Assembly: GCF_900091855.1 (NCBI RefSeq)
Contig: NZ_FMCH01000423.1
Span: forward strand, 1 to 64,000
Origin: Streptomyces sp. DvalAA-14
GTDB taxonomy: Bacteria; Actinomycetota; Actinomycetes; Streptomycetales; Streptomycetaceae
DNA length: 64,000 bases
Direction: 5' to 3'
Of this stretch, positions 42,018 through 56,100 are shown in pieces; the first letter of the stretch is position 1; each line of letters begins with the position of its first letter. The position numbers were made by a program, and so were the translations under genes. Under the pieces are notes generated by a model that was given only the letters and a program-made list of their open reading frames with translations, searched no databases and was not told the origin of the DNA.

Positions 42018-42186
42018 ATCACCCGAAGGGACTACGACCGATGTCGTACTCATGTGCGACTTTGGTCGTTGGTTCTGTTGCGGGAGGATGAAACGCGCAG
42101 TCCGGCGCGTTGCAGCCTCGGGCGGAAGGGTCGGGCGGGGCAGCAGAGCAGGCCCCGCCCATCCGATGATCAGTGGGAGGAATCGC

Positions 42187-45100
42187 GTGACGAGGGCGAA
42201 GGACGAACCGGAGCAGGGCTGGCTCCGGCGACTGACCGCGTACAGCTGGCGGTACAAGCGCGAAGTCCTGCTGGCGCTGGGCGCCTCGCTCGGCGGCATG
42301 GCCGTCACCGCCCTGGTCCCGCTCGTCCCGAAGATCATCATCGACGACGTCATCGTCAAGCACGACAAGCCGCTCCTGCCCTGGGCGATCGCTCTGGTGG
42401 TGGCCGCGCTCGTCGTCTACGCGCTGACATACGTGCGCCGCTACTACGGCGGACGCCTCGCCCTCGACGTCCAGCACGACATGCGCAATGAGATGTTCCG
42501 CTCGATCCTGCGCCTCGACGGCCGCCGCCAGGACGAGCTGAGCACCGGTCAGGTCGTCGGCCGGGCCACCAGCGACCTCCAGCTCATCCAGGGCCTGCTC
42601 TTCATGCTGCCCATGGTCGTCGGCAATCTGCTGCTCTTCGTGCTCTCGCTCGTCGTGATGCTGGTGCTCTCCCCGCTGCTGACCCTGGTCGCGCTGGCGG
42701 TGGCCCCGGCCCTGTGGTTCATCGCCAACCGCAGCCGCAAGCGGCTCTTCCCCGCCACCTGGTACGCCCAGGGGCAGGCCGCCGCCGTCGCCGGCATCGT
42801 GGACGGATCGGTCACGGGCGTCCGCGTGGTCAAGGGGTTCGGCCAGGAGCAGCAGGAGATGGGCAAGCTGGAGAAGGTGGGCCGCCGCCTGTTCGCCGGG
42901 CGGGTGCGTACCGTCCGGCTCAGCGCCCGCTACACCCCCGCGCTCCAGGCCGTCCCGTCGCTCGGCCAGATCGGCATGCTGGCGCTCGGCGGCTGGATGG
43001 CCACCCGGGGTCAGATCACCCTGGGTACATTCGTCGCCTTCTCCACGTACCTCGCCCAGCTCACCGGGCCGGTGCGGATGCTCACCGTCATCCTCACCGT
43101 GGGCCAGCAGGCCCGCGCCGGTGTGGAGCGCGTCTTCGAGCTCATCGACACCGAGCCGACTATGACGGAGGGCAGCGGCACCCTGCCGGCCGACGCGCCC
43201 GCCACCGTCGACTTCGACCAGGTGTCCTTCGGCTACACCGAGGAGCGGCCCGTCCTGGCCGGCTTCGACCTCCACGTGGCGCCGGGTGAGACCGTCGCGA
43301 TCGTGGGTTCCTCGGGATCGGGAAAGTCCACCGTTTCCCTGCTGCTGCCCCGGTTCTACGACGTCACCGGCGGCGCGGTGCGCGTCGGTGGCACCGACGT
43401 GCGGGAGCTGACCTTCGACGCGCTGCGATCGGTGATCGGCCTGGTCCCCGAGGACAGCTTCCTGTTCTCCGACACCGTGCGGTCCAACATCGCCTACGGT
43501 CATCCCGAGGCGACCGACGAGCAGATCGTCGCCGCCACCCGGGCCGCCCAGGCGCACGAATTCATCACCGCGCTGCCCGACGGCTACGACACGGTGGTCG
43601 GCGAGCAGGGCCTGACCCTCTCGGGTGGTCAGCGGCAGCGGGTCGCGCTGGCCCGCGCCATCCTCATGGACCCCGGACTCCTGCTGCTCGACGACGCGAC
43701 GTCAGCGGTCGACGCCCGCGTGGAAGCCGAGATCTTCGACGCGCTGCGCGAGGTCATGCGCGGCCGGACGACGGTCCTGATCGCCCACCGCCGCTCCACG
43801 CTCGCGCTCGCCGACCGGATCGCGGTGCTGGATGCCGGACGGCTGGCCGATGTGGGCACCCATGAGGAACTGGAGGAGCGCAGCGCCCTCTACCGCGCGC
43901 TGCTCACCGATCCGGAGGCACTCGGCGCGGACGTGGTGCAGCTCGACCCGGCGGGTGCGGCGGCAGCCGCTGAGGAGCGGGAGCGCGCCAACGGCGGGAT
44001 CACCCCTGAGCTGTGGCCGGCGGACCGCCGTCCGGCCGGTTCCGAAAGCGACGCGGCGGCGACCGCCGCCGGTGTGATGACCCCGCGCAACGCCGGCGCC
44101 GGTGGTCCCGGCGGCCTGGCGGGAGCGCTGGCCGGCATGCCCGCCACGCCCGAACTGCTGGCCAAGGTGGCCGCCCTGCCGCCCGCGCTCGACACCCCCG
44201 ACGTGGACGAGCAGCGGGCCCAGGCGGCCGATCCCGACTTCGGTCTGGGCAGCATGCTGCGCGGCTTCCGGACCCCGCTGCTGCTGAGCCTGCTGCTGGT
44301 CGCGGTGGACGCCGTCGCCGGACTGCTGCTGCCGATCCTGATCCGGCACGGCATCGACGCCGGCGTTCGCCAGGCCGCGCTCGGCGCGGTGTGGGTGGCG
44401 TCGCTGCTCGGCCTCGGTCTGGTGATCACCCAGTGGGCGGTGGAATGGGGCTCGACGCTGCTCACCGGACGGACCGGCGAACGTGTCCTGTACACCCTGC
44501 GGGTGAAGATCTTCGCCCACCTGCACCGGCTCGGACTCGACTACTACGAGCGCGAGCTGAGCGGCCGCATCATGACCCGGATGACCACCGACGTGGACGC
44601 GCTGTCCACGTTCCTGCAGACCGGTCTGGTCACCGCACTGGTCAGCCTGCTCACCTTCGCCGGCATCCTGGTCGCGCTGCTCGCCATCGACGTGGAGCTG
44701 GCCCTGGTGGTCTTCGCCACGCTGCCGATTCTGGTGGTCGCCACCTGGATCTTCCGCCGCAAGTCCAAGCGGGCCTACGAACTCGCCCGCGAACGGGTCG
44801 CCGTCGTCAACGCCGACCTGCAGGAGCACGTCGCCGGTCTCCGTGTGGTCCAGGCGTTCCGCGGTGAGCGACTCGGCGCGGAACGCTTCCTGCGCCGCAG
44901 CGACGAGTACCGCACCGCCCGGGTGCGGGGCCAGTTCCTGATCTCGGTCTACTTCCCCTTCGTGCAACTGCTGTCGAGCGTGGCGGCGGCCCTGGTGCTG
45001 GCCATGGGAGCGCACCGGGTCACCGAGGGCACGTTGACGGCGGGCGCCCTGGTGGCGTACCTGCTCTACATCGACCTGTTCTTCTCACCCGTGCAGCAGC

Positions 45101-45972
45101 TCTCGCAGGTCTTCGACGGCTATCAGCAGGCCACCGTCTCGCTCGGCCGGATCCGCGAGCTGCTGCGCGAGCCGACGACCACCCCGGCCGCCGAACGGCC
45201 CGAGCCGGTGGGCCGGCTCCGGGGCGAGATCACCTTCCGCGACGTGCACTTCCGCTACGGCAGTGCCGCCGACGGCACCGAGGCTCTCGCGGGGATCTCC
45301 CTGCGCGTGCCGGCCGGACAGACCGTCGCCTTCGTCGGTGAGACCGGCGCCGGCAAGTCCACCCTGGTCAAGATGGTCGCCCGGTTCTACGACCCGACCG
45401 ACGGCGCGGTCCTCGTGGACGGCGCCGACATCCGCGGACTGGAGCTGACCGACTACCGCCGGCAGCTCGGTGTCGTCCCCCAGGAGCCGTACCTGTTCGC
45501 GGGCACCGTGCGCGACGCCATCGCGTACGGCCGGATGGACGCCACCGACGCCGAGGTGGAAGCGGCCGCGCGTGCGGTCGGCGCCGACGCCATGATCGCC
45601 ACGCTGGAAGGCGGCTATCTGCACGAAGTGGCCGAGCGCGGCCGCAATCTGTCCGCCGGACAGCGGCAACTGATCGCGTTGGCCCGGGCCGAGCTGGTCG
45701 ACCCGGTGATCCTGCTGCTGGACGAAGCCACCGCCGCCCTCGATCTCGCCTCCGAGGGGCTGGTCAATCAAGCTTCCGACCGGCTCGCCATACGCCGTAC
45801 GACACTGGTCGTCGCCCACCGGCTCAGCACCGCCGCGCGCGCCGACCGGGTGGTGGTGCTCGACCGCGGCCGAGTGATCGAAGACGGCACCCACGAGGCA
45901 TTGCTGGCCCACGACGGCCGCTACGCCGAACTCTGGCGGACCTTCACCGGCGAACTGCAGGAGGCCGCCTGA
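42187..45972 (+). CDS. Fused heterodimer-type ABC exporter with one degenerate ATPase site
   Basis: The product has 1261 residues. The GTG at 42187 lies six bases after GGGAGG. Two full exporter halves are fused: TMD1 (from residue 15), NBD1 (Walker A GSSGSGKST near 375, signature LSGGQRQR), a low-complexity linker (about 590-680), TMD2, and NBD2 (Walker A GETGAGKST near 1051). NBD1 has Walker B LLLLDDATSAVD with Asp in place of catalytic Glu, while NBD2 keeps LLLDEATAALD. NBD2's signature is LSAGQRQL, with Ala for Gly. This is the same asymmetry as in TM287/288-type exporters: one consensus and one degenerate site. Substrate unknown; drug or lipid export is possible. Confidence 0.9.
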   Translation: MTRAKDEPEQGWLRRLTAYSWRYKREVLLALGASLGGMAVTALVPLVPKIIIDDVIVKHDKPLLPWAIALVVAALVVYALTYVRRYYGGRLALDVQHDMRNEMFRSILRLDGRRQDELSTGQVVGRATSDLQLIQGLLFMLPMVVGNLLLFVLSLVVMLVLSPLLTLVALAVAPALWFIANRSRKRLFPATWYAQGQAAAVAGIVDGSVTGVRVVKGFGQEQQEMGKLEKVGRRLFAGRVRTVRLSARYTPALQAVPSLGQIGMLALGGWMATRGQITLGTFVAFSTYLAQLTGPVRMLTVILTVGQQARAGVERVFELIDTEPTMTEGSGTLPADAPATVDFDQVSFGYTEERPVLAGFDLHVAPGETVAIVGSSGSGKSTVSLLLPRFYDVTGGAVRVGGTDVRELTFDALRSVIGLVPEDSFLFSDTVRSNIAYGHPEATDEQIVAATRAAQAHEFITALPDGYDTVVGEQGLTLSGGQRQRVALARAILMDPGLLLLDDATSAVDARVEAEIFDALREVMRGRTTVLIAHRRSTLALADRIAVLDAGRLADVGTHEELEERSALYRALLTDPEALGADVVQLDPAGAAAAAEERERANGGITPELWPADRRPAGSESDAAATAAGVMTPRNAGAGGPGGLAGALAGMPATPELLAKVAALPPALDTPDVDEQRAQAADPDFGLGSMLRGFRTPLLLSLLLVAVDAVAGLLLPILIRHGIDAGVRQAALGAVWVASLLGLGLVITQWAVEWGSTLLTGRTGERVLYTLRVKIFAHLHRLGLDYYERELSGRIMTRMTTDVDALSTFLQTGLVTALVSLLTFAGILVALLAIDVELALVVFATLPILVVATWIFRRKSKRAYELARERVAVVNADLQEHVAGLRVVQAFRGERLGAERFLRRSDEYRTARVRGQFLISVYFPFVQLLSSVAAALVLAMGAHRVTEGTLTAGALVAYLLYIDLFFSPVQQLSQVFDGYQQATVSLGRIRELLREPTTTPAAERPEPVGRLRGEITFRDVHFRYGSAADGTEALAGISLRVPAGQTVAFVGETGAGKSTLVKMVARFYDPTDGAVLVDGADIRGLELTDYRRQLGVVPQEPYLFAGTVRDAIAYGRMDATDAEVEAAARAVGADAMIATLEGGYLHEVAERGRNLSAGQRQLIALARAELVDPVILLLDEATAALDLASEGLVNQASDRLAIRRTTLVVAHRLSTAARADRVVVLDRGRVIEDGTHEALLAHDGRYAELWRTFTGELQEAA

Positions 45973-46765: not shown

Positions 46766-47563
46766 TCAGGCCGACTCGACCAGCAGCCGCTCCAGGAGCT
46801 CCCGGCCGGCCGTCAGCAGGCCGGGCAGTTCCGGTGCGGCGCTGTGCCACCGCTTCTCGTACTCCCAGCACAACCAGCCGTCCCATCCGGCCCGGCTGAG
46901 CACCTCGACCGTCTCGGCCAGTGGCAGCACCCCGGCGCCCAGCGGCAGCGGCGCCGTATCGGCCACGGAAGCGATGTCCTTCACCTGCACGTAGCCCAGG
47001 TAGGGGGCGAGTACCGGATAGGTGGACGACGGTTGCTCCCCGGCCAGCCAGGTGTGCATGATGTCCCAGATCGCCCCGGTCGAGTGATGCCCCACCAGAC
47101 CCAGCACCCTGGCCACATCCGCCCCGTTCCGGTGCGAGTCGTGGGTCTCCAGCAGCACCCGTACCCCGAGGTCGCCCGCGATCGGAGCGGCCGCGGCCAG
47201 CCGCCGTGCCGCGAATCCGTCCGCCGAAGCCTGGGGCAGGTCCCCGCCGCCGGGAAAGACCCGAACGAACGACGCCCCCAGGTCCGCGGCCAACTCCATC
47301 GCGGCGCAGATCTCGTCCAGCACCGGCCGGTCCTCTCCCGGGGCGGCCACCTTGGCGTAGGCGGCGACCGTGAGGATCTCCACCCCCGCCTTCGCGAACT
47401 GCTCAGCCACCCGGGCCCGTTCGGCGGCCGACAACCCGGTGTGGACCGGTCCCTCCTCGCTCGCGCGCAATTCGACGCCGTGGTAGCCGTGTTCCGATGC
47501 GAGCCGCACCACCTGGTCGATCGGCAGTGCGGGGACCCCGAGGGTGGAGAAGGCGAATCTCAT
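46766..47563 (-). CDS. Sugar phosphate isomerase/epimerase (TIM barrel)
   Basis: The product has 265 residues. The ATG at 47563 is set by a promoter that ends seven bases upstream. It is an AP-endonuclease-2-like xylose-isomerase-type barrel: FAFSTLGVPALPIDQVVRLA, HGYHGVELR, VRVLLETHDSHRNGADVAR with metal ligands, GAIWDIMHTWLAGEQPS, and LCWEYEKRWHSAAPEL. Such enzymes isomerise or epimerise sugars or cyclitols, often inosose-like compounds. It lies after the LacI regulator and near the Gfo/Idh-DUF993-isomerase operon, so it probably supplies a further step in the same pathway. Confidence 0.8.
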   Translation of the reverse strand: MRFAFSTLGVPALPIDQVVRLASEHGYHGVELRASEEGPVHTGLSAAERARVAEQFAKAGVEILTVAAYAKVAAPGEDRPVLDEICAAMELAADLGASFVRVFPGGGDLPQASADGFAARRLAAAAPIAGDLGVRVLLETHDSHRNGADVARVLGLVGHHSTGAIWDIMHTWLAGEQPSSTYPVLAPYLGYVQVKDIASVADTAPLPLGAGVLPLAETVEVLSRAGWDGWLCWEYEKRWHSAAPELPGLLTAGRELLERLLVESA

Positions 47564-47599
47564 TCGCCGGACACTAGGCACCGCGTGGTGCCAGGTCAA
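47564..47599 (-). promoter_or_regulatory. Consensus promoter with embedded palindrome, leaderless isomerase gene
   Basis: On the minus strand TTGACC (47599-47594), a 17-base spacer and TAGTGT (47576-47571) precede seven bases and the ATG at 47563. The spacer contains the palindrome GGCACC-N4-GGTGCC (47577-47592), ideally placed for a repressor. It is unlike the AAGCGCTT operators of the neighbouring lacI gene. Confidence 0.65.
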
Positions 47600-47617
47600 C
47601 CGGACTCCGCGGCGATG

Positions 47618-48706
47618 TCAGCGGCGCCCGGGTGACGGCGGCGCCGTCGACCCGCGGACCATCAGTTCGGTGGCGACCGTCGCCACCCCGCCCGGCGGAG
47701 GCGCCTGGCGCCCCATCACCAGCCTTCCGGCCCGCGCCCCTGCCTCCTGCAGCGGAATGCGGACCGTGGTCAGCGCGGGGGACGCGTCCACGCTGAACGG
47801 CAGATCGTCGAAGCCCGCCACCGAGACGTCGCCGGGAATGCTGAGGCCGCTGTCCCGCAGCGCCGCGCACACCCCGAGCGCCACGGTGTCGTTGGCGGCG
47901 ACGATCGCGGTCACTCCGGTCTCCCTGCGCAGGAGTTCGAGCGTGGCGTCGTAGCCGGAAGAACGGTCGTAGCCGCCGTGGACCGTCAGCCGGTCGGCCG
48001 CCGCTCCCGCGCCGGTGTCCGGTCCGGGACCGCCGGCCAGCAGCGCCGCGCGATGGCCCTCCAGCCGATGCCGTGTGGTGCTGCGCTCGGCGGGCCCGGC
48101 GACGTAGCCGATCCGGCGGTGACCCAGCGACAGCAGGTGCTCGGTCAGCCGCCGGGCGCCGCCGCGGTTGTCGAAGGCGATCGTCATCAGGCCCAGCGCG
48201 TCACTGGCCGGCTCCAGCGGGGGACGGCCGCACAGCACGATCCGGGTGCCGGAGGCGGCCAGCCGGGTCAGCCGGGTGGCGACGGCCGCCGCGTGCGCCT
48301 TGCTCTCCACCGTGCTGCCGGTGAGCACGACGCCCGCGGCCCGCTGGCGTTCCAGCAGCGTCAGGTAGGTGAGTTCGGCCTCGGGCGATCCGCCGGTGTT
48401 GCAGACCACAGCGAGTTTGCTGCCGCCCGGCTGGGTGCCGCCGGCGCCGATCTCCGCCTGGAGCGCGCTGGCGATGAGGCCGAAGAAGGGGTCGGCGACA
48501 TCGTTCACCAGTACCCCGACGAGGTCGGAGGTGGCCGCGGCGAGCGCGCGGGCCTGGCCGTTGACGACGTAGTCGAGTTCCTCGACCGCCCGTTGGACAC
48601 GGTCCTTGGTGGAGCCGGCCACCGGATAGTTGCCGTTGAGGACCCGGGAGACGGTCGCCGACGACACCCCGGCCCGCGCCGCGACGTCGGCCAGGGTCAC
48701 TGCCAT
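47618..48706 (-). CDS. LacI-family repressor of the Gfo/Idh-DUF993 locus
   Basis: The product has 362 residues, starting at ATG 48706 with GAGGAGGA upstream. The HTH is VTLADVAARAGVSSATVSRVL with hinge VNGQARALAAATS. The sensor domain has VGVLVNDVADPFFGLIASALQ, HRRIGYVAGPAERSTTRHRLEG, VTAIVAANDTVALGVCAAL and VSVAGFDDLPFSVDASPALTTV. It is divergent from the dehydrogenase-DUF993-isomerase operon, and two AAGCGCTT-centred boxes lie in the gap. It should repress the operon, and itself, until a pathway intermediate or substrate binds. The ligand is not known. Confidence 0.88.
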   Translation of the reverse strand: MAVTLADVAARAGVSSATVSRVLNGNYPVAGSTKDRVQRAVEELDYVVNGQARALAAATSDLVGVLVNDVADPFFGLIASALQAEIGAGGTQPGGSKLAVVCNTGGSPEAELTYLTLLERQRAAGVVLTGSTVESKAHAAAVATRLTRLAASGTRIVLCGRPPLEPASDALGLMTIAFDNRGGARRLTEHLLSLGHRRIGYVAGPAERSTTRHRLEGHRAALLAGGPGPDTGAGAAADRLTVHGGYDRSSGYDATLELLRRETGVTAIVAANDTVALGVCAALRDSGLSIPGDVSVAGFDDLPFSVDASPALTTVRIPLQEAGARAGRLVMGRQAPPPGGVATVATELMVRGSTAPPSPGRR

Positions 48707-48867
48707 CTCGGTCCGGTCCTCCTCGGGGGATGGGCGCTGGGCCGCCGACCGCGGTCGATGGGCGGGGACCGCCGTCCGGCGGGGTACATGCTCTCATTTC
48801 GCGGCAGCGGAGGGGAGCGGCCGGCCCGGACGCTGCTCGCCTTGGCCGCTGGACTCTAGCAAGTTCT

Positions 48868-48881
48868 AGCAAGCGCTTTCT
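48868..48881. promoter_or_regulatory. LacI operator 1
   Basis: AGCAAGCGCTTTCT has a palindromic AAGCGCTT core. It is the exact reverse complement of the box at 48939-48952; their centres are 71 bases apart. Confidence 0.8.
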
Positions 48882-48938
48882 ATCCCCTCCAGGATGGGCC
48901 TTGCCCCGACGGAGGCCGCAGGTTAGCGTGCATCGGGA

Positions 48939-48952
48939 AGAAAGCGCTTGCT
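48939..48952. promoter_or_regulatory. LacI operator 2
   Basis: AGAAAGCGCTTGCT is the reverse complement of operator 1 and lies 46 bases before the dehydrogenase ATG. Two boxes in opposite orientation at about seven helical turns could support looping over the divergent promoters. Confidence 0.8.
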
Positions 48953-48998
48953 ATTGATCCCTGCCAAGGGTCACCATCCGGCTCCGAGGAGAGCAGCC

Positions 48999-50150
48999 AT
49001 GACACGCAGGACGATGCGGATCGCCATGAACGGCGTCACCGGACGCATGGGCTACCGGCAGCACCTGGTCCGTTCCCTCCTGAGCCTGCGTGATCAAGGC
49101 GGGCTGGAGCTGGGGGACGGCGACGTACTGGTCCCCGAGCCGGTACTCGTCGGCAGGCGTGAGCCCGCGCTCAGGGCGATCGCCGAGCGGCACGGCATCG
49201 AGCACTGGACCACCGACCTCGACTCGGTGCTCGCCGATCCGTCCGTGGAGATCTACTTCGACGCCCAGGTCACCGCGGCCCGCGAGGCGGCCGTGACGCA
49301 GGCGATCGCGGCCGGCAAGCACATCTACTGCGAGAAGCCCACCGGCACCACTTTGGCGGGGTCCCTGGAACTCGCCCGGCTCGCCGAGGCCGCCGGGATC
49401 AAGCACGGCGTGGTGCAGGACAAGCTCTTCCTGCCCGGCCTGCTCAAACTCCGGCGGCTGGTGGAAGGCGGCTTCTTCGGCCGCGTCCTGTCCGTCCGCG
49501 GCGAGTTCGGGTACTGGGTGCACGAAGGCGACTGGCAGAGCGCCCAGCGCCCCTCCTGGAACTACCGTGCCCAGGACGGCGGCGGCATCGTCGTCGACAT
49601 GTTCCCGCACTGGGAGTACGTGCTGCACGAGCTGTTCGGCCGGGTGCGCAGCGTGCAGGCCCTGGCCACCACGCACATCCCGCAGCGCTGGGACGAGCAG
49701 GACAAGCCGTACGACGCCACCGCCGACGACGCCGCCTACGGCATCTTCGAGCTGGACGGGGGAGCGATCGCGCAGATCAACTCCTCCTGGGCGGTGCGCG
49801 TCAACCGGGACGAACTGGTGGAGTTCCAGGTCGACGGCACGCACGGGTCGGCCGTCGCCGGGCTGCGGGACTGCCGGGTGCAGCACCGCTCGGCCACCCC
49901 GAAGCCGGTGTGGAATCCGGATCTGCCCGTCACCGAGTCCTTCCGCGACCAGTGGCAGCAGGTCCCGGACAACGCCGAGTTCGGCAACGGCTTCAAGGCG
50001 CAATGGGAGCTGTTCCTGCGCCACGTGGTGCTCGACGAGCCGTGGCGCTGGGATCTGCTGGCCGGCGCCCGGGGGATGCAACTGGCCGAACTCGGCCTGA
50101 AATCCTCCGAGCAGGGCCGTCGCATCGAGGTTCCGGAGCTGTCCCTGTGA
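48999..50150 (+). CDS. Gfo/Idh/MocA-family oxidoreductase
   Basis: The product has 383 residues. The ATG at 48999 follows CGAGGAGAG. The N-terminal Rossmann domain (MRIAMNGVTGRMGYRQHLVRS; the NGVTGRMG loop replaces the usual GxGxxG) leads to the family's EKPTG motif in GKHIYCEKPTGTTL. The C-terminal domain has VVQDKLFLPGLLKLRRLVEGGFFGRV, GGGIVVDMFPHWEYVLHELFG and GIFELDGGAIAQINSSWAVR. It is expected to oxidise a sugar or cyclitol hydroxyl with NAD(P). It is the first gene of a tightly coupled operon with DUF993 and an isomerase. The usual EKP Lys is retained, so it is likely active. Confidence 0.87.
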   Translation: MTRRTMRIAMNGVTGRMGYRQHLVRSLLSLRDQGGLELGDGDVLVPEPVLVGRREPALRAIAERHGIEHWTTDLDSVLADPSVEIYFDAQVTAAREAAVTQAIAAGKHIYCEKPTGTTLAGSLELARLAEAAGIKHGVVQDKLFLPGLLKLRRLVEGGFFGRVLSVRGEFGYWVHEGDWQSAQRPSWNYRAQDGGGIVVDMFPHWEYVLHELFGRVRSVQALATTHIPQRWDEQDKPYDATADDAAYGIFELDGGAIAQINSSWAVRVNRDELVEFQVDGTHGSAVAGLRDCRVQHRSATPKPVWNPDLPVTESFRDQWQQVPDNAEFGNGFKAQWELFLRHVVLDEPWRWDLLAGARGMQLAELGLKSSEQGRRIEVPELSL

Positions 50151-51298
50151 GCATCCTGCTGCCGTCCGGGTCCGGACTCCCGCGCCCCTATGCGCCGCGT
50201 TCGGAAGCCGTCTCCTGGACCCCCGATCTGCCGCTGCGCAGCCGCGTGGTGTATTCGGCCGCGCACGTCGTGGCGGACCCGCTGTGCGCGGCGGCCGACG
50301 CACCGGCGGTCGTCGACTGGGAGGCCACTCTCGCCTTCCGCCGCCACCTGTGGGCGCACGGCCTGGGCGTGGCCGAGGCCATGGACACCGCACAGCGCGG
50401 CATGGGGCTGGACTGGGCCGGGGCCGCGGAGCTGATCCGCAGGTCCTCGGCCGAAGCGCGGTCCGTCGGCGGGCGCATCGTGTGCGGCGTCGGCACCGAT
50501 CAACTGGCCGGCCCGGCGAGCCTCGGCGAGGTCGTGGCCGCTTACGAGGAGCAGCTGGCCGTCGTCGAGGAGGCCGGCACCCAGGCGGTCCTGATGGCGT
50601 CCCGCGCCCTGACGGCCGTCGCGAAGGGGCCCGACGACTACCTGGAGGTGTACGAGCGGCTGCTGCGGCAGTCCTCCGATCGGGTGATCCTGCACTGGCT
50701 CGGTCCGATGTTTGATCCGGCGCTGGCCGGCTATTGGGGCTCGGACGACCTGGACGCGGCGACCGAGACCTTTCTCGACGTCATCGCCACCCATCCCGAG
50801 AAGGTCGACGGCGTCAAGGTCTCGCTGCTGGACGCGGACCGTGAGGTCGCGCTGCGCCGCCGCCTGCCCAACGGCGTGCGCTGCTACACGGGCGACGACT
50901 TCAACTACCCGGAGCTGATCGCGGGCGACGAACAGGGCTTCAGCCACGCCCTGCTGGGCATCTTCGACCCCCTGGCGCCGCTGGCGGCATCGGCTGTCAG
51001 CCTCCTCGACACGGGCGACATCCCGGGCTTTCGGCGTGTCCTCGATCCCACCGTGGAACTGTCCCGGCACCTGTTCGGCCCGCCGACCCGCTTCTACAAG
51101 ACCGGCGTCGTCCTGCTCGCCTGGCTGGCCGGGCACCAGGACCACTTCACCATGCTGGGCGGACTGCAGTCGGCCCGCTCGCTGCCGCACCTGGCACGAG
51201 CCTACGAACTGGCCGACCGCATCGGCCTCTTCCCCGATCCGGCGCTCGCCGAGGACCGGATGCGGCGCCTGCTCGCAGTTCACGGGGTGGACGCGTGA
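50147..51298 (+). CDS. DUF993 protein, dihydrodipicolinate-synthase-like barrel
   Basis: The product has 383 residues. The GTG at 50147 overlaps the previous stop (GTGA). I recognise the DUF993 family, distant relatives of the DapA class I aldolases. Visible blocks are FRRHLWAHGLGVAEAMDTAQRGMGLDW (region near residue 65), GVGTDQLAGPASLGEVVAAY, VILHWLGPMFDPALAGYWG, VDGVKVSLLDADREVALRRR, and RCYTGDDFNYPELIAGDE. The Lys in GVKVSLLD is a candidate Schiff-base residue. The family has no established function as far as I know. Placement between a dehydrogenase and an isomerase suggests retro-aldol or related cleavage of an oxidised sugar. Confidence 0.82.
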   Translation: MSILLPSGSGLPRPYAPRSEAVSWTPDLPLRSRVVYSAAHVVADPLCAAADAPAVVDWEATLAFRRHLWAHGLGVAEAMDTAQRGMGLDWAGAAELIRRSSAEARSVGGRIVCGVGTDQLAGPASLGEVVAAYEEQLAVVEEAGTQAVLMASRALTAVAKGPDDYLEVYERLLRQSSDRVILHWLGPMFDPALAGYWGSDDLDAATETFLDVIATHPEKVDGVKVSLLDADREVALRRRLPNGVRCYTGDDFNYPELIAGDEQGFSHALLGIFDPLAPLAASAVSLLDTGDIPGFRRVLDPTVELSRHLFGPPTRFYKTGVVLLAWLAGHQDHFTMLGGLQSARSLPHLARAYELADRIGLFPDPALAEDRMRRLLAVHGVDA

Positions 51299-52170
51299 GC
51301 GACGGAGCGACCCCCGGGAAGGCGACCTCCGGGAAGGCGCCCGGTCCCCTGGCGCGGCTGAGCATCAATCAGGAAACGATCAAGCAGTGGTCGCTGCCCG
51401 ACCTGGCGGCGGGCTGCACCGCGGCGGGCATCACCCAGGTCGGGCTCTGGCGGGCGCCGGTGCAGGAGTACGGGGTCCGGCGCGCCGCGCGGCTGATGCG
51501 GGACAGCGGACTGACCGTCACATCCCTGTGCCGCGGCGGCTTCTTCACCGCGTCGGACGCCGGGGACCGGGCGGCGGCCCTGGACGACAACCGCAGGGCG
51601 ATCGACGAGGCGGCGACCCTGGGGACCGGAACCCTGGTCCTGGTATCGGGCGGCCTGCCGCCGGGGGACCGCGACATCGCCGCGGCCCGCGAGCGGGTGG
51701 CCGGGGCCATCGCCGTCCTGGCCCCGTACGCGGCCGAACGCGGGGTGCGGCTCGCCGTCGAACCCCTGCATCCGATGTATGCCTCGGACCGGTGCGTGGT
51801 CTCCACCCTCGGCCAGGCCCTGGACGTCGCGGAGCGCTTTCCCGCGGAGCAGGTCGGTGTCGTCGTGGACACCTACCACGTGTGGTGGGACGACACGGCC
51901 GCGGCGCAGATCGTACGGGCCGGGACCGGCGGCCGGATCGCCTGCTTCCAGGTCGCCGACTGGGTGACCCCGCTGCCCGAGGGGGTGTTGCTCGGACGCG
52001 GGCAGCTCGGCGACGGCTGCGTCGACCTGCGGGGATTTCGCGAACAGGTGGACGCGGCCGGCTACCGCGGCCCCGTCGAGGTGGAGATCTTCAGCCCGGC
52101 GCTGTGGGCCCGGGACGGCGCGGAGGTGCTGGCGGAGATCGCCGAAAGGTACCGGCGGCACGTCCGCTGA
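51295..52170 (+). CDS. Sugar phosphate isomerase/epimerase (TIM barrel), second copy
   Basis: The product has 291 residues. The GTG at 51295 overlaps the DUF993 stop. It is a xylose-isomerase-like barrel: LSINQETIKQWSLPDLAAGC, GLTVTSLCRGGFFTASDA, VRLAVEPLHPMYASDRCVV with a metal-binding Glu, VVVDTYHVWWDDT, and VEVEIFSPALWAR with the last Glu ligand. It differs from the barrel at 46766, so the locus has two distinct isomerases. It ends the operon; a strong terminator follows after 146 bases. Confidence 0.85.
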   Translation: MSDGATPGKATSGKAPGPLARLSINQETIKQWSLPDLAAGCTAAGITQVGLWRAPVQEYGVRRAARLMRDSGLTVTSLCRGGFFTASDAGDRAAALDDNRRAIDEAATLGTGTLVLVSGGLPPGDRDIAAARERVAGAIAVLAPYAAERGVRLAVEPLHPMYASDRCVVSTLGQALDVAERFPAEQVGVVVDTYHVWWDDTAAAQIVRAGTGGRIACFQVADWVTPLPEGVLLGRGQLGDGCVDLRGFREQVDAAGYRGPVEVEIFSPALWARDGAEVLAEIAERYRRHVR

Positions 52171-52315
52171 AAAAATCTTGAGAAATTTGATGGTCGTACT
52201 ACAACCCTTGTGGGGGGTGGTCGGTCATACATGGCATCAAGGCTCCCGGGAGGGGTTCAGGGAGTCAGGACGGAAGAAACGCCCGAGGGGGGCTTCGGGG
52301 GTAAGAGGGGGAACG

Positions 52316-52353
52316 CGAAAGGGGTCCGGCTTCGTGCCGGACCCCTTTCGTTT
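52316..52353. terminator. Perfect 15-bp bidirectional-type terminator
   Basis: CGAAAGGGGTCCGGC (52316-52330) and GCCGGACCCCTTTCG (52336-52350) enclose the loop TTCGT and are followed by TTTGCCC. It closes the dehydrogenase-DUF993-isomerase operon. Confidence 0.9.
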
Positions 52354-52460: not shown

Positions 52461-54686
52461 ATGGCGGAGACCGCGACGCACCTTTCCGTTCTGGAAGGCG
52501 TCCTGGAGCGCATCACCTACGCCAACGAGGACAACGGCTACACCGTCGCGCGGGTCGACACCGGCCGCGGCGCGGCGGACCTGCTGACGGTGGTCGGGGC
52601 GCTGCTCGGGGCGCAGCCCGGAGAGTCCCTGCGGATGCACGGCCGTTGGGGCTCGCACCCGCAGTACGGCAAGCAGTTCACCGTGGAGAACTACACGACG
52701 GTCCTTCCGGCCACGATCCAGGGCATCCGCCGCTATCTGGGATCGGGCCTGATCAAGGGCATCGGGCCGAGGATCGCCGAGCGCATCGTGGAGCATTTCG
52801 GCACCGACACCCTGGAGGTCATCGAGTCCGAGCCCAAGCGCCTGGTCGAGGTGCCCGGACTCGGCCCGAAGCGGACCAAGTTGATCGCCGCTGCCTGGGA
52901 GGAGCAGAAGGCGATCAAGGAGGTGATGGTCTTTCTGCAGGGCGTGGGCGTCTCCACATCCATCGCGGTGCGGATCTACAAGAGCTACGGGGACGCGTCG
53001 ATCTCCGTGGTGAAGAACCAGCCGTACCGGCTGGCGTCCGAGGTCTGGGGCATCGGCTTCCTCACCGCCGACCGGCTGGCGCAGGCGGTCGGGATACCGC
53101 ACGACAGTCCGGAGCGCGTCAAGGCCGGCCTGCAGTACGCCCTGTCGCAGGCCACGGATCAGGGCAACTGCTTCCTGCCGCAGGAGCGGCTGATCGCCGA
53201 CTCGGTCAAGCTCCTCCAGGTGGACATCGGCCTGGTCATCGACTGCCTGGGGGAACTGGCCGACGAGCAAGGGGTGGTGCGCGAGGACGTCCCGGCCGCC
53301 GACGGCGACCGGGAGCCGGTGAAAGCCGTCTACCTGGTGCCTTTCCACCGGGCGGAGATATCGCTGGCGGGCCAGTTGCTGCGGCTGCTGCGCGGATCGG
53401 AGGACCGGCTGACCGCCTTCCAGGACGTGGACTGGGACAAGGCGCTGGCCTGGCTCACCACCACGACCGGGACCGACCTCGCGCCCGAGCAGCAGCAGGC
53501 GGTCCGGCTGGCCTTGACGGAGAAGGTCGCGGTCCTCACCGGCGGCCCGGGCTGCGGCAAGTCCTTCACCGTCCGCTCGGTGGTGGCCCTGGCCCTGGCG
53601 AAGAAGACCAAGGTGATCCTCGCGGCACCCACCGGCCGCGCGGCCAAGCGGCTGGCCGAGCTGACCGGCGCGGACGCCTCGACCGTGCACCGGCTGCTGG
53701 AACTCAAGCCGGGCGGCGACGCCGCCTACGACAAGGACCGGCCGCTGGACGCCGACCTCGTGGTGGTGGACGAGGCGTCGATGCTCGACCTGCTGCTGGC
53801 GAACAAGCTGGTCAAGGCGGTGCCGCCCGGCGCCCACCTGCTGTTCGTCGGGGACGTGGACCAACTGCCGAGCGTGGGCGCCGGGGAGGTGCTCCGGGAC
53901 CTGCTCGCGCCGAGCAGCCCGGTGCCCTCGGTGCGCCTCACCCGGGTGTTCCGCCAGGCGCAGCAGTCCGGCGTGGTGACCAACGCGCACCGGATCAACG
54001 CCGGCGAGCCGCCCGTCACCCAGGGCCTGCCCGATTTCTTCCTCTTCGCCGAGGAGGACTCCGAGGCGGCCGGCCGGCTCACCGTCGATGTGGTGGCCCG
54101 GCGGATTCCCGCCAAATTCGGCCTCGACCCGCGGCGGGACGTGCAGGTGCTCGCCCCTATGCACCGCGGCCCGGCCGGTGCCGGGGTGCTGAACGGTCTG
54201 CTCCAACAGGCCGTCACGCCGGGCCGCCCGGACCTGCCCGAGCGACGCGTCGGGGGCCGGACCTTCCGGGTGGGCGACAAAGTCACCCAGATCAGGAACA
54301 ACTATGACAAAGGCGCCAACGGCGTCTTCAACGGCACGGTGGGCGTGGTGACCGCCCTCGATCCCGACGAGCAGAAACTGACCGTGCGCACCGACGAGGA
54401 CGAGGAGATCGACTACGACTTCGACGAGTTGGACGAGCTGACCCACGCCTACGCGGTGACCATCCACCGATCCCAGGGCAGCGAGTACCCGGCCGTGGTC
54501 ATCCCCGTCACCACCGGTGCCTGGATGATGCTCCAGCGAAATCTGCTGTACACGGCTGTGACCAGGGCGAAGAAACTGGTGGTGCTGGTCGGGTCACGGC
54601 GCGCCATCGGGCAGGCGGTGCGCACGGTGTCCGCCGGAAGACGTTTCACAGCTCTCGACCACCGGCTCTCCCCGGGCGCAGAATAG
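52461..54686 (+). CDS. recD2: RecD2-like ATP-dependent 5'-3' DNA helicase
   Basis: The product has 741 residues, starting at ATG 52461 with GAAGGGAGG upstream. The N-terminal OB and helix-hairpin-helix region includes GLIKGIGPRIAERIVEHFG and VPGLGPKRTKLI. The SF1B helicase core has Walker A LTGGPGCGKSFT (near residue 360), Walker B VVVDEASM, GDVDQLPSVGAGEVL, and motif VI-type TIHRSQGSEYPAVVIPV with TAVTRAKKLVVLVG. RecD2 proteins act alone, without RecBC, in DNA repair. The same gene precedes citrate synthase in S. coelicolor, from memory of gene order. Confidence 0.93.
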   Translation: MAETATHLSVLEGVLERITYANEDNGYTVARVDTGRGAADLLTVVGALLGAQPGESLRMHGRWGSHPQYGKQFTVENYTTVLPATIQGIRRYLGSGLIKGIGPRIAERIVEHFGTDTLEVIESEPKRLVEVPGLGPKRTKLIAAAWEEQKAIKEVMVFLQGVGVSTSIAVRIYKSYGDASISVVKNQPYRLASEVWGIGFLTADRLAQAVGIPHDSPERVKAGLQYALSQATDQGNCFLPQERLIADSVKLLQVDIGLVIDCLGELADEQGVVREDVPAADGDREPVKAVYLVPFHRAEISLAGQLLRLLRGSEDRLTAFQDVDWDKALAWLTTTTGTDLAPEQQQAVRLALTEKVAVLTGGPGCGKSFTVRSVVALALAKKTKVILAAPTGRAAKRLAELTGADASTVHRLLELKPGGDAAYDKDRPLDADLVVVDEASMLDLLLANKLVKAVPPGAHLLFVGDVDQLPSVGAGEVLRDLLAPSSPVPSVRLTRVFRQAQQSGVVTNAHRINAGEPPVTQGLPDFFLFAEEDSEAAGRLTVDVVARRIPAKFGLDPRRDVQVLAPMHRGPAGAGVLNGLLQQAVTPGRPDLPERRVGGRTFRVGDKVTQIRNNYDKGANGVFNGTVGVVTALDPDEQKLTVRTDEDEEIDYDFDELDELTHAYAVTIHRSQGSEYPAVVIPVTTGAWMMLQRNLLYTAVTRAKKLVVLVGSRRAIGQAVRTVSAGRRFTALDHRLSPGAE

Positions 54687-54810: not shown

Positions 54811-56100
54811 GTGAGCGACAACTCTGTAGTACTGCGATACGGGGACAGCGAACACAGCTACCCGGTTGTGGACAGCACCGTCGGCGACAAGGGCTTCGAC
54901 ATCGGCAAGCTGCGTGCCGACACGGGCCTGGTCACTTTGGACAGCGGGTACGGCAACACCGCGGCCTACAAGTCCGCGATCACCTTCCTGGACGGTGAGC
55001 AGGGCATCCTGCGCTATCGGGGTTACCCGATCGAGCAGGTCGCCGAGCGCGGGAGCTTCCTGGAGACCGCCTACCTGCTGATCAACGGGGAACTGCCGAC
55101 CGTGGACCAGCTGTCCGAGTTCAAGGGTGAGATCACTCAGCACACCCTGCTGCACGAGGACGTCAAACGGTTCTACGACGGCTTCCCGCGCGACGCGCAT
55201 CCGATGGCGATGCTGTCGTCGGTGGTCAGCGCGCTGTCCACGTTCTACCAGGACAGCCACAACCCGTTCGACCCGAAGCAGCGCCACCTGTCCACGATCC
55301 GGCTGCTCGCCAAGCTGCCGACGATCGCGGCCTACGCCTACAAGAAGTCGGTCGGCCAGCCGGTGGTCTACCCGCGCAACGATCTCGGCTACGTCGAGAA
55401 CTTCCTGCGGATGACCTTCTCGGTGCCGGCCGAGGAGTACCAGCTGGACCCGGTCGTGGTCAGCGCACTGGACAAGCTGTTCATCCTGCACGCCGACCAC
55501 GAACAGAACTGCTCGACGTCGACGGTCCGCCTGGTCGGCTCCTCGCAGGCGAACCAGTTCGCCTCGATCTCCGCGGGCATCAGCGCGCTGTGGGGCCCGC
55601 TGCACGGGGGCGCCAACCAGTCGGTGCTGGAGATGCTCGAGCGCATCCAGGCCGAGGGCGGCGACGTCGACTCGTTCATCGCGAAGGTGAAGAACAAGGA
55701 AGACGGTGTGAAGCTCATGGGCTTCGGGCACCGTGTCTACAAGAACTTCGACCCCCGGGCGCAGATCATCAAGGCGGCGGCGCACGACGTCCTGTCCGCG
55801 CTCGGCAAGTCCGACGAACTGCTCGACATCGCGCTCAAGCTCGAAGAGCACGCACTGAGCGACGACTACTTCGTGTCGCGCAAGCTCTACCCGAACGTGG
55901 ACTTCTACACCGGCCTGATCTACCGGGCCATGGGCTTCCCGACCAGCATGTTCACCGTGCTCTTCGCGATCGGCCGGCTTCCCGGCTGGATCGCCCAGTG
56001 GCACGAGATGATCAAGGAGCCCGGCTCCCGGATCGGCCGTCCGCGGCAGATCTACACCGGCGTCGTCACCCGCGACTACGTACCGGTCGAAGCCCGCTGA
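54811..56100 (+). CDS. citA: Citrate synthase
   Basis: The product has 429 residues. The GTG at 54811 follows GAGGGAATG. It is a hexameric type II-like citrate synthase: DGEQGILRYRGYPIEQVAE, ILHADHEQNCSTSTVRLVGSS with the first catalytic His, LHGGANQSVLEML, GFGHRVYKNFDPRA with the second His, and YTGLIYRAMGFPTSMFTVLFAIGR with the catalytic Asp region preceded by PNVDF. It condenses oxaloacetate and acetyl-CoA, entry to the TCA cycle. In S. coelicolor citA mutants fail to form aerial mycelium. It is monocistronic with its own terminators. Confidence 0.97.
   Translation: MSDNSVVLRYGDSEHSYPVVDSTVGDKGFDIGKLRADTGLVTLDSGYGNTAAYKSAITFLDGEQGILRYRGYPIEQVAERGSFLETAYLLINGELPTVDQLSEFKGEITQHTLLHEDVKRFYDGFPRDAHPMAMLSSVVSALSTFYQDSHNPFDPKQRHLSTIRLLAKLPTIAAYAYKKSVGQPVVYPRNDLGYVENFLRMTFSVPAEEYQLDPVVVSALDKLFILHADHEQNCSTSTVRLVGSSQANQFASISAGISALWGPLHGGANQSVLEMLERIQAEGGDVDSFIAKVKNKEDGVKLMGFGHRVYKNFDPRAQIIKAAAHDVLSALGKSDELLDIALKLEEHALSDDYFVSRKLYPNVDFYTGLIYRAMGFPTSMFTVLFAIGRLPGWIAQWHEMIKEPGSRIGRPRQIYTGVVTRDYVPVEAR

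Follow-up and report, generated by a model that had tools for sequence, protein, structure and literature searches.

Three genes occupy positions 48999–52170 of the 64,000-nucleotide stretch of Streptomyces sp. DvalAA-14 DNA analyzed here (the window), and are divergent from a lacI gene. The first, gfo (48999..50150, plus strand, ATG start), codes for a 383-residue Gfo/Idh/MocA-type NAD(P)-dependent dehydrogenase; the second (50147..51298, plus strand, GTG start) codes for a 383-residue DapA-fold barrel of family DUF993 (PF06187); and the third, iso2 (51295..52170, plus strand, GTG start), codes for a 291-residue PF01261 xylose-isomerase-like barrel. GTGA overlaps at 50147 and 51295, each placing a GTG start on a TGA stop, join the three genes. 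The lacI gene (47618..48706, minus strand) codes for 362 residues with LacI and Peripla_BP Pfam domains, and 54 bases downstream of it, in the same direction, lies iso1 (46766..47563, minus strand), a second PF01261 barrel of 265 residues when read from the ATG, with a TTG start extending it to 47599. A GC-rich hairpin of 16 pairs (52315..52351; -41.8 kcal/mol over 60 nt, z -5.2) lies after iso2, before the next gene, and is a possible transcript end; it has no long T tail and is absent from the list of a consensus scan. Open reading frame coordinates and Pfam matches confirm the trio, junctions, and divergent lacI described by the first-pass annotation, and the interpretation then attached to them is partly supported by the results below.

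The Gfo protein contains Rossmann and C-terminal domains (PF22725, PF02894, PF01408) together with the EKP and D...H motifs of the Gfo/Idh/MocA family, in which the K, D, and H are catalytic residues. Lys113 of the EKP motif is present in all 128 alignment rows, and Asp200 and His204 are each present in 127, the remaining row being a gap. Its closest structure match is 3oqb_A (E 1.4e-156), and because this match starts at the second residue of the ATG-initiated protein, the ATG is preferred over the TTG at 48948 of the longest reading frame. Iso2 (PF01261, 148.7 bits) matches structures 7vpf and 3ju2/3qc0 (SMc04130). Its putative metal ligands, with roles assigned from the family, are Glu156, Asp192, Gln219, and Glu262 or Glu264. 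Position 219 is His in 14 of 132 rows and thus does not discriminate dehydratases, so its use as a dehydratase signature was dropped. Iso1 (PF01261, 122.5 bits) is weakly similar to AsbF (3dx5, E 3e-6), as is Iso2 to 5hmq (E 8e-8), which we take to be QuiC; AsbF and QuiC are 3-dehydroshikimate dehydratases. The Iso1 model is nearer to Art22, IolI, UlaE, and ketose 3-epimerases (Z about 27–31).

The lacI–gfo gap contains two LacI-type palindromes, AGCAAGCGCTTTCT (48868..48881) and AGAAAGCGCTTGCT (48939..48952, starting 60 bases 5' of the gfo start), which are putative operators. The exact pattern has no third match in the 7.94 Mb genome, and no wider regulon is seen there when two mismatches are allowed (26 sites per strand versus 47 for a reversed control). 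The exact 14-mer is present in 21 of 61 family genomes, six of which have extra sites distant from the trio, mostly beside unlabeled genes; two genomes have one 5' of a CUT1 binding-protein gene, and one site is near another LacI gene. Hence this regulator is not the only one associated with the motif, and assignment of a transporter through a shared operator was dropped. A divergent lacI orthologue more than 55% identical adjoins gfo in 76 of 80 Streptomyces-type loci, and the trio would be under its control.

Comparisons of related loci show that actinobacteria retain this gene order, the conservation for which the first-pass annotation proposed a search. The colinear trio is found in 79/80 Streptomyces-type loci and in 39/40 and 13/13 loci of two other actinobacterial sets, all three genes are present in each of 74 actinobacterial panel loci, and the pairwise distances of their proteins correlate (r 0.75–0.77, 62 loci). 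Clustering of the trio is far above chance. The second isomerase had been counted as part of the module; it is instead accessory and outside the conserved core, with matches in 53/80 Streptomyces-type loci, 1/40 and 0/13 other actinobacterial loci, and none of 17 plasmid loci. Six of these 17 plasmid loci carry the colinear trio, and in the other 11 either DUF993 lies beside acyl-CoA-dehydrogenase/SDR/ETF or GMC genes or iso2 is absent; substrates may thus differ between clades. The plasmid copies are mostly annotated simply as 'dihydrodipicolinate synthase family protein'. DUF993 occurs in 132 of 393 sampled genomes of the same actinobacterial class, representing 41 of 125 genera, and one genome scan confirmed at least 582 relatives. 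The plasmid loci (17 of 147 records) and 60 loci gathered later were hand-picked for diversity and for the length of the contig, and genes in neighboring loci were called with a home-made codon-model caller that missed or misplaced some. Counts of linked genes come from tblastn or PLSDB annotation, except for the 30-locus glycerate kinase count below, which uses called genes.

The DUF993 protein matches PF06187 over residues 4–381 (591.7 bits, cut-off 24) and the sequence of 4dnh_A (E 3e-133), which is also the best match of its structural model (pLDDT 84.7, Z 48.5). The other 49 matches listed for the model are all chains of the DHDPS/NAL superfamily (Z 27.7–28.5, rmsd 2.4–2.6), such as YagE (2v8z; Z 28.5, rmsd 2.4, 289 aligned residues), placing DUF993 on the DapA TIM-barrel fold. 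Profile comparison with six DapA-family proteins (hhalign, E 1.4e-4, with a probability of only 52.5 over 140 columns) places Lys224 of the GVKVSLLD segment (residues 222–229, bases 50810–50833) on the Schiff-base lysine invariant in those six. The first-pass annotation had asked whether this lysine aligns in that way; it does, it is invariant in 205/205 rows, as are H183, R84, D250, and K318, and by this alignment it is the candidate Schiff-base lysine of DUF993.

Similar to DapA, NanA, and YagE, DUF993 thus has the fold (Z about 28), the lysine position, and the GDD that follows the lysine in a DapA-like row. Unlike them, it is longer, has no PF00701 match (hmmscan, E up to 0.001), and carries His183 at the position of the catalytic Tyr, which is also missing in one of the six DapA-family proteins (L086). 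It also lacks the G.TGE motif, which binds the substrate carboxylate of a 2-keto acid. G.TGE is found in 0/205 DUF993 rows, and a bare TGE occurs in five, at residues 8–22 or 141 and in no single place; among the six DapA-family proteins, three have G.TGE, two CGTGE, and one GIMGE. Judging from the model, the strand corresponding to the TGE position would be followed by MDTAQRG in DUF993. The earlier description of DUF993 as aldolase-like stands as regards fold and lysine, but with the Tyr replaced and G.TGE missing, lyase chemistry is not assured and the protein should not be taken for an ordinary pyruvate aldolase. DUF993 is probably a class I lyase, though not one of the usual pyruvate kind. 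The statement that it has no established reaction agrees with its Pfam label of 'unknown function', the absence of NCBIfam matches at E up to 0.001, and the literature searched, in which it is not named.

Genes linked to the trio in related genomes offer clues to its substrate. Glycerate kinases occur in 14 of 30 loci and belong to two unrelated families, PF02595 (eight) and DUF4147+MOFRL (six), with one member of each verified by Pfam. The PF02595 type also lies within 8 of the 60 loci gathered afterwards. Among 13 genomes with one to four PF02595 matches each, six have one within 10 kb of DUF993, compared to 0.10 expected (P 3e-10, in a post hoc test whose six genomes are those in which the link was first seen). 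This type is found in only 14/74 actinobacterial loci and in 0/20 loci of one other set, and it is not beside the trio of the window, whose genome has its single PF02595 gene on another contig. The MOFRL type occurs in 1/17 actinobacterial genomes, far from DUF993, which leaves the plasmid loci as the only ones that show its linkage. The absence of a kinase or transporter, claimed earlier, holds next to the trio in the window but not in relatives, where glycerate kinases lie beside the trio and the suggested search for linked transporters finds ABC, TRAP, or TTT systems; the variety of these transporters argues against one shared import substrate.

The proposal of an inositol-like substrate is likewise upheld in part. 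In one family (f84), all 14 loci sampled have iol pathway genes within the same 16–20 kb as the trio, with IolD, IolB, and IolC in one locus and MMSDH in another scoring above NCBIfam cut-offs. However, aldarate-type dehydratase (17/74 loci) and KdgD (14/74) genes are linked about equally often, making a sugar acid as likely as a cyclitol, and in several loci of a second family (f82) both lie directly downstream of iso2. Each of these links is found in a single family or just a few, and the counts therefore exceed the number of independent events. No single substrate could be selected for all trios, as inositol, uronate/aldarate, and glycoside contexts are all present.

Gene order, palindromes, conserved residues, fold, lysine equivalence, and the glycerate kinase, iol, and aldarate-type linkages together form the sequence-level basis for a functional proposal. 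The trio may be a conserved LacI-controlled operon for non-phosphorylative catabolism of an inositol- or sugar-acid-type polyhydroxylated compound from plants, a reading to which we give an even chance. Gfo would oxidize one secondary hydroxyl to a ketone with NAD(P)+, and Iso2, as a metal-dependent barrel, would epimerize, isomerize, or dehydrate the keto compound. Lys224 of DUF993 would then form a Schiff base with the ketone and, with His183 taking the acid-base role that Tyr has in DapA, a C-C bond would be broken by retro-aldol cleavage, either opening a ring or yielding two C3 pieces. A C3 fragment (tartronate semialdehyde, hydroxypyruvate, or glyceraldehyde) would pass to glycerate and enter metabolism through glycerate kinase. 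We infer every reaction, control by LacI, the substrate, and the order of the second and third steps. A more specific and tentative possibility, which we think somewhat doubtful, is that DUF993 founds a branch of its own within the DapA superfamily, as a pyruvate-independent Schiff-base lyase acting on a keto-cyclitol or keto-sugar acid that the Gfo and PF01261 enzymes supply and that it opens or splits. Examples would be conversion of an inosose to a 5-keto-hexose by retro-aldol ring opening or cleavage of a 5-keto-hexonate to C3 pieces, giving a phosphate-free inositol/uronate route to glycerate across actinobacteria and rhizobia.

Known pathways resemble parts of this scheme. The myo-inositol iolGEDBCJA pathway also pairs a Gfo dehydrogenase with a PF01261 enzyme, as do the rhizopine moc genes, and its genes adjoin the f84 trios; however, gfo scores 53.5 bits against a cut-off of 355 for IolG (TIGR04380), Iso2 has no IolE match (TIGR04379) at NCBIfam E up to 0.001, and the trio has no kinase or TPP hydrolase. 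In non-phosphorylative Entner-Doudoroff and GarL-GarR-GarK routes, a lyase step is followed by glycerate kinase, as proposed for the trio. To our knowledge, the lyases of those routes act through pyruvate, unlike what would be expected of DUF993, which lacks G.TGE.

The missing Tyr and G.TGE point away from a standard aldolase, and DUF993 could instead be a DapA-superfamily dehydratase or decarboxylase, like KdgD, in an aldarate/uronate pathway. The KdgD and aldarate-type dehydratase genes directly 3' of iso2 would fit such a role; however, KdgD is an additional gene there, and its chemistry need not be duplicated by DUF993. The presence of glycerate kinases from two unrelated families among the linked genes hints at a C3 product, and the iol link is left without explanation. 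We consider this unlikely. Still less probable is a 3-keto-glycoside route resembling those for levoglucosan (LgdA/LgdB, LgdABC) and C- or O-glycosides (DgpABC, AtOGE/AtHYD), in which Gfo would oxidize the glycoside at C3, Iso2 would beta-eliminate the aglycone, and DUF993 would hydrate or cleave the keto-glycal. CUT1 sugar transporters near some trios and GH4 matches in two loci are compatible with it, and levoglucosan dehydrogenase is the top NCBIfam match of gfo, though at 62.3 bits against a cut-off of 650 (NF052479). The passages on these routes in PMC10628242 and PMC10066097 describe cooperating Gfo and PF01261-type enzymes and name no DUF993-like enzyme, and the word dihydrodipicolinate is absent from both papers. 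The glycerate kinase and iol links also go unexplained by such a route.

The pAO1 cluster of Paenarthrobacter nicotinovorans raises another alternative. It contains orthologues of gfo (64% identical) and DUF993 (53%) and a glycerate kinase, with gfo-DUF993-glycerate kinase preceded by genes for an ABC transporter, a GMC oxidoreductase, and an aldehyde dehydrogenase. A 2013 paper, present in a citing reference list, reportedly describes an oxidative xylose pathway on pAO1 and may concern a relative. If so, Gfo would oxidize xylose and DUF993 would be a 2-keto-3-deoxy-acid aldolase. However, the pAO1 locus has neither iso2 nor a close lacI match, DUF993 lacks the G.TGE expected for 2-keto-acid binding, and the inositol and aldarate neighbors would have no explanation, and we regard this as the most improbable of the alternatives.

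Searches by SMc04130–04135, pAO1, the gene set, PDB codes/PF06187, 3-keto pathways, and inositol/pinitol found no paper on the function of the trio. In the literature, SMc04132 and SMc04133 appear only in an expression table and SMc04134 only as a network node. A crystal structure of a DUF993 protein (4dnh) has been available since 2012, with no function recorded in the sources searched. The trio looks like an unstudied breakdown route, centered on the aldolase-like DUF993, for a plant sugar of the ring or acid type. The inositol, aldarate-type, and glycerate kinase linkages together with the candidate lysine yield a shortlist of substrates and make the reaction directly testable. Confirmation of the DUF993 reaction would provide a function for a large gene family.

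The Gfo/Idh/MocA-type dehydrogenase gene gfo (48999-50150, + strand), the DUF993 gene (PF06187; 50147-51298, +) and iso2, encoding a PF01261 xylose-isomerase-like barrel (51295-52170, +), are joined by GTGA overlaps at both ends of DUF993. Divergent from this trio is the LacI-family regulator gene lacI (47618-48706, - strand), followed by iso1 (46766-47563, -), which codes for a second PF01261 barrel. The interval separating lacI from gfo contains two palindromes, AGCAAGCGCTTTCT (48868-48881) and AGAAAGCGCTTGCT (48939-48952). No other exact match to AGMAAGCGCTTKCT exists in the 7.94 Mb genome, where a reversed control gives 0; with two mismatches allowed, the reversed control yields 47 matches per strand, exceeding the 26 of the pattern itself. 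A palindrome of this type lies 5' of gfo in 100/128 loci, counted with a single regular expression, some duplicate loci and no shuffle control. Two genomes of the window's family (L199 and L202) also have exact copies immediately 5' of a gene for a CUT1 sugar-binding protein; these copies may mark a transporter of the regulon or be a binding site for a paralogous LacI. Between iso2 and the next gene lies a 16-pair hairpin (52315-52351; z -5.2); it was absent from the output of a consensus scan, which reported no promoter either.

As judged from translation, a RecD-like helicase gene (52461-54686, +) and a citrate-synthase-like gene (54811-56100, +) lie 3' of the trio, as do similar genes in 10 and 9 clustered loci, respectively, of a 30-locus set comprising 14 phylum-sample loci (one from the window's family) and 16 plasmid loci. 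A single 1306-aa ORF (42052-45972, +) resembles, again from its translation, two fused ABC-exporter halves, with two transmembrane plus ATPase units in one polypeptide.

The trio is a real, widespread and conserved operon. DUF993 is present in 24/296 sampled phylum genomes and in 132/393 sampled class genomes (41/125 genera); all 14 control genomes lack it. The three genes are colinear in 79 of the 80 best-matching loci among the genome matches listed (gfo is split in L016), all titled Streptomyces, Actinacidiphila or Kitasatospora save one 'Actinobacteria bacterium'; in 39/40 other class loci, gfo lying ~5 kb off in L263; in 13/13 phylum-sample loci outside the window's family; and in 6/17 plasmid loci, hand-picked from 147 records. 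All three were found in a further 20/20 class loci, and the class loci examined (40, 20 and 6 earlier) represent 66 of the 93 DUF993-bearing class genomes outside the window's family. The three proteins show correlated pairwise distances across 62 loci (r 0.75-0.77). The gene order described in the first-pass annotation holds across actinobacteria, but the module that it outlined had two isomerases, and iso1 is accessory, occurring in 53/80 Streptomyces-type, 1/40 class, 0/13 phylum and 0/17 plasmid loci. A divergent lacI more than 55% identical adjoins gfo in 76/80 Streptomyces-type loci and in none of the 40 class, 13 phylum and 17 plasmid loci.

Relatives carry a MarR-GNAT fusion gene between lacI and iso1 (L190 2849-3763, checked against Pfam, with matches in L191 and L208) that the window lacks. 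In one genome (L107/L125; G008:C1:379764-380957), gfo and DUF993 are in pieces, from decay or sequencing error. A very distant DUF993-like match (L126, the same as L109; G294:C12:45295-46083; E 3e-5), at a locus with no gfo, iso2, lacI or iso1 match, is possibly an outlying branch.

The DUF993 protein matches its Pfam family, described as a protein of unknown function, at 591.7 bits and has no NCBIfam match. Its PDB match is 4dnh, hypothetical protein SMc04132 of Sinorhizobium meliloti, to which a model from 51 sequences (pLDDT 84.7) aligns with Z 48.5; the other structures shown are DHDPS/NAL-superfamily chains (Z 27.7-28.5). In DapA, Tyr133, Lys161 and GTTGE are the catalytic and carboxylate-binding elements. 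When DUF993 was compared by profile with six DapA-family proteins, of which five come from the window genome and one from a plasmid, the alignment covered 140 columns (E 1.4e-4, probability 52.5); one input row was a stray single residue. K224 of GVKVS aligns with a Lys invariant in all six, so that by sequence alignment this residue matches the DapA Schiff-base Lys, a correspondence that the first-pass annotation proposed to test; K318 aligns with another invariant Lys, and the DUF993 GDD with that of a DapA-like row. DUF993 lacks the usual Tyr, present in 5/6 compared proteins and aligned with H183, and the G.TGE-type motif, which reads G.TGE in three of the six, CGTGE in two and GIMGE in one; G.TGE occurs in 0/205 DUF993 rows, and bare TGE in 5/205 at scattered places. 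K224, H183, W184, R84, D118, D190, D250, D251 and K318 are invariant in 205/205 rows, duplicate loci included. DUF993 is a candidate Schiff-base lyase; a dehydratase role is also possible.

The partner enzymes also retain conserved residues. In gfo, K113 is kept in 128/128 rows and D200 and H204 each in 127/128, the remaining row being a gap; in iso2, E156 and D192 are kept in 132/132 and E262/E264 in 130/132 (two gaps), while Q219 is H in 14/132. The gfo product matches 3oqb (E 1.4e-156), titled just 'Oxidoreductase', and falls far below the cut-offs for its best curated match, levoglucosan dehydrogenase (62 bits vs 650), and for IolG (53.5 vs 355). Close iso2 structures (7vpf, 3ju2 and 3qc0) are titled putative sugar isomerases or protein SMc04130, and the closest structures to the iso1 model (pLDDT 96.5) are those of Art22, IolI, UlaE and ketose 3-epimerases (Z about 27-31).

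Neighboring genes provide evidence on product and substrate. Within the 30-locus set, glycerate kinases of the PF02595 type occur in 8 loci and of the DUF4147+MOFRL type in 6, one member of each type being checked against Pfam. That two unrelated kinase families have been recruited suggests that glycerate is a product. A PF02595 match lies within 10 kb of DUF993 in 6 of 13 genomes outside the window's family, each with 1-4 such matches, vs 0.10 expected (P 3e-10), a post hoc test because the same loci had suggested the link. Among 60 loci gathered later, 8 have a PF02595-type kinase, all within the first 40; the MOFRL type was found in 1/17 actinobacterial genomes, away from DUF993.

In one family (f84; 18 genomes with a DUF993 match), iol genes share the same 16-20 kb stretch in 14/14 sampled loci from three genera, in two arrangements. 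IolD (939.8 vs 715), IolB (300.7 vs 205) and IolC (384.5 vs 300) of L243 and MMSDH of L244 (747.8 vs 448.5) exceed NCBIfam cut-offs, the IolG- and IolE-like proteins of both loci score below them, and assignments in the other 12 loci are from tblastn only. Aldarate-type enolase-superfamily dehydratases, below cut-off where tested, occur in 17/74 loci and KdgD in 14/74 (families f82, f16 and f8), immediately 3' of iso2 in several f82 loci; KdgD of L116 is above its subfamily cut-off (374.6 vs 278) and below that of the equivalog (270.7 vs 373.95). A linked PF01370 protein has no uronate-dehydrogenase match, and its label, uronate-dehydrogenase-like, is a guess. Transporters near the trio differ (CUT1, CUT2, branched-chain-type, a three-gene set that we label TauABC-like, TRAP and TTT). 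In alpha- and betaproteobacterial plasmid loci, DUF993 also occurs with acyl-CoA-dehydrogenase and SDR genes, often with ETF, or alternatively with GMC oxidoreductases; CoA-transferase and crotonase genes are found too. Two proteins encoded next to DUF993 and annotated 'enolase' (L086 5351-6736, 462 aa) and 'mandelate racemase' (L129 12318-13730, 471 aa) give either no Pfam match at E <=1e-5 or just a borderline one, and none in NCBIfam.

These neighboring pathways suggest that the substrate is an inositol- or sugar-acid-type C6 polyol. Most likely, Gfo, or other dehydrogenases in other loci, would make a ketone, which the PF01261 enzyme would rearrange; DUF993 would then cleave a C-C bond via a lysine Schiff base, and a C3 acid would pass to glycerate kinase. 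By chemical reasoning, one version would open an inositol-ring ketone to a 5-keto-hexose, a retro-aldol step that would be feasible because such a ketone is a beta-hydroxy ketone; another would cleave a 5-keto-hexonate to tartronate semialdehyde and dihydroxyacetone. It is also possible that the trio serves a 3-keto-glycoside route, as Gfo and PF01261-type enzymes are described as established in levoglucosan and 3-keto-glycoside degradation (PMC10066097, PMC10628242), or a xylose pathway such as that proposed for pAO1 of Paenarthrobacter nicotinovorans (Mihasan et al. 2013, cited in PMC6305408), a plasmid with a gfo-DUF993-glycerate kinase cluster.

A literature search, with subscription papers mostly outside its coverage, returned no paper naming DUF993 and no reported function, and earlier work may exist in that literature; an expression table in a PhaR study (PMC12542648) lists SMc04132 and SMc04133. 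The trio represents a variant of an already known type, oxidative and non-phosphorylative catabolism, and not something entirely new; its uncharacterized lyase candidate, DUF993, is now testable.
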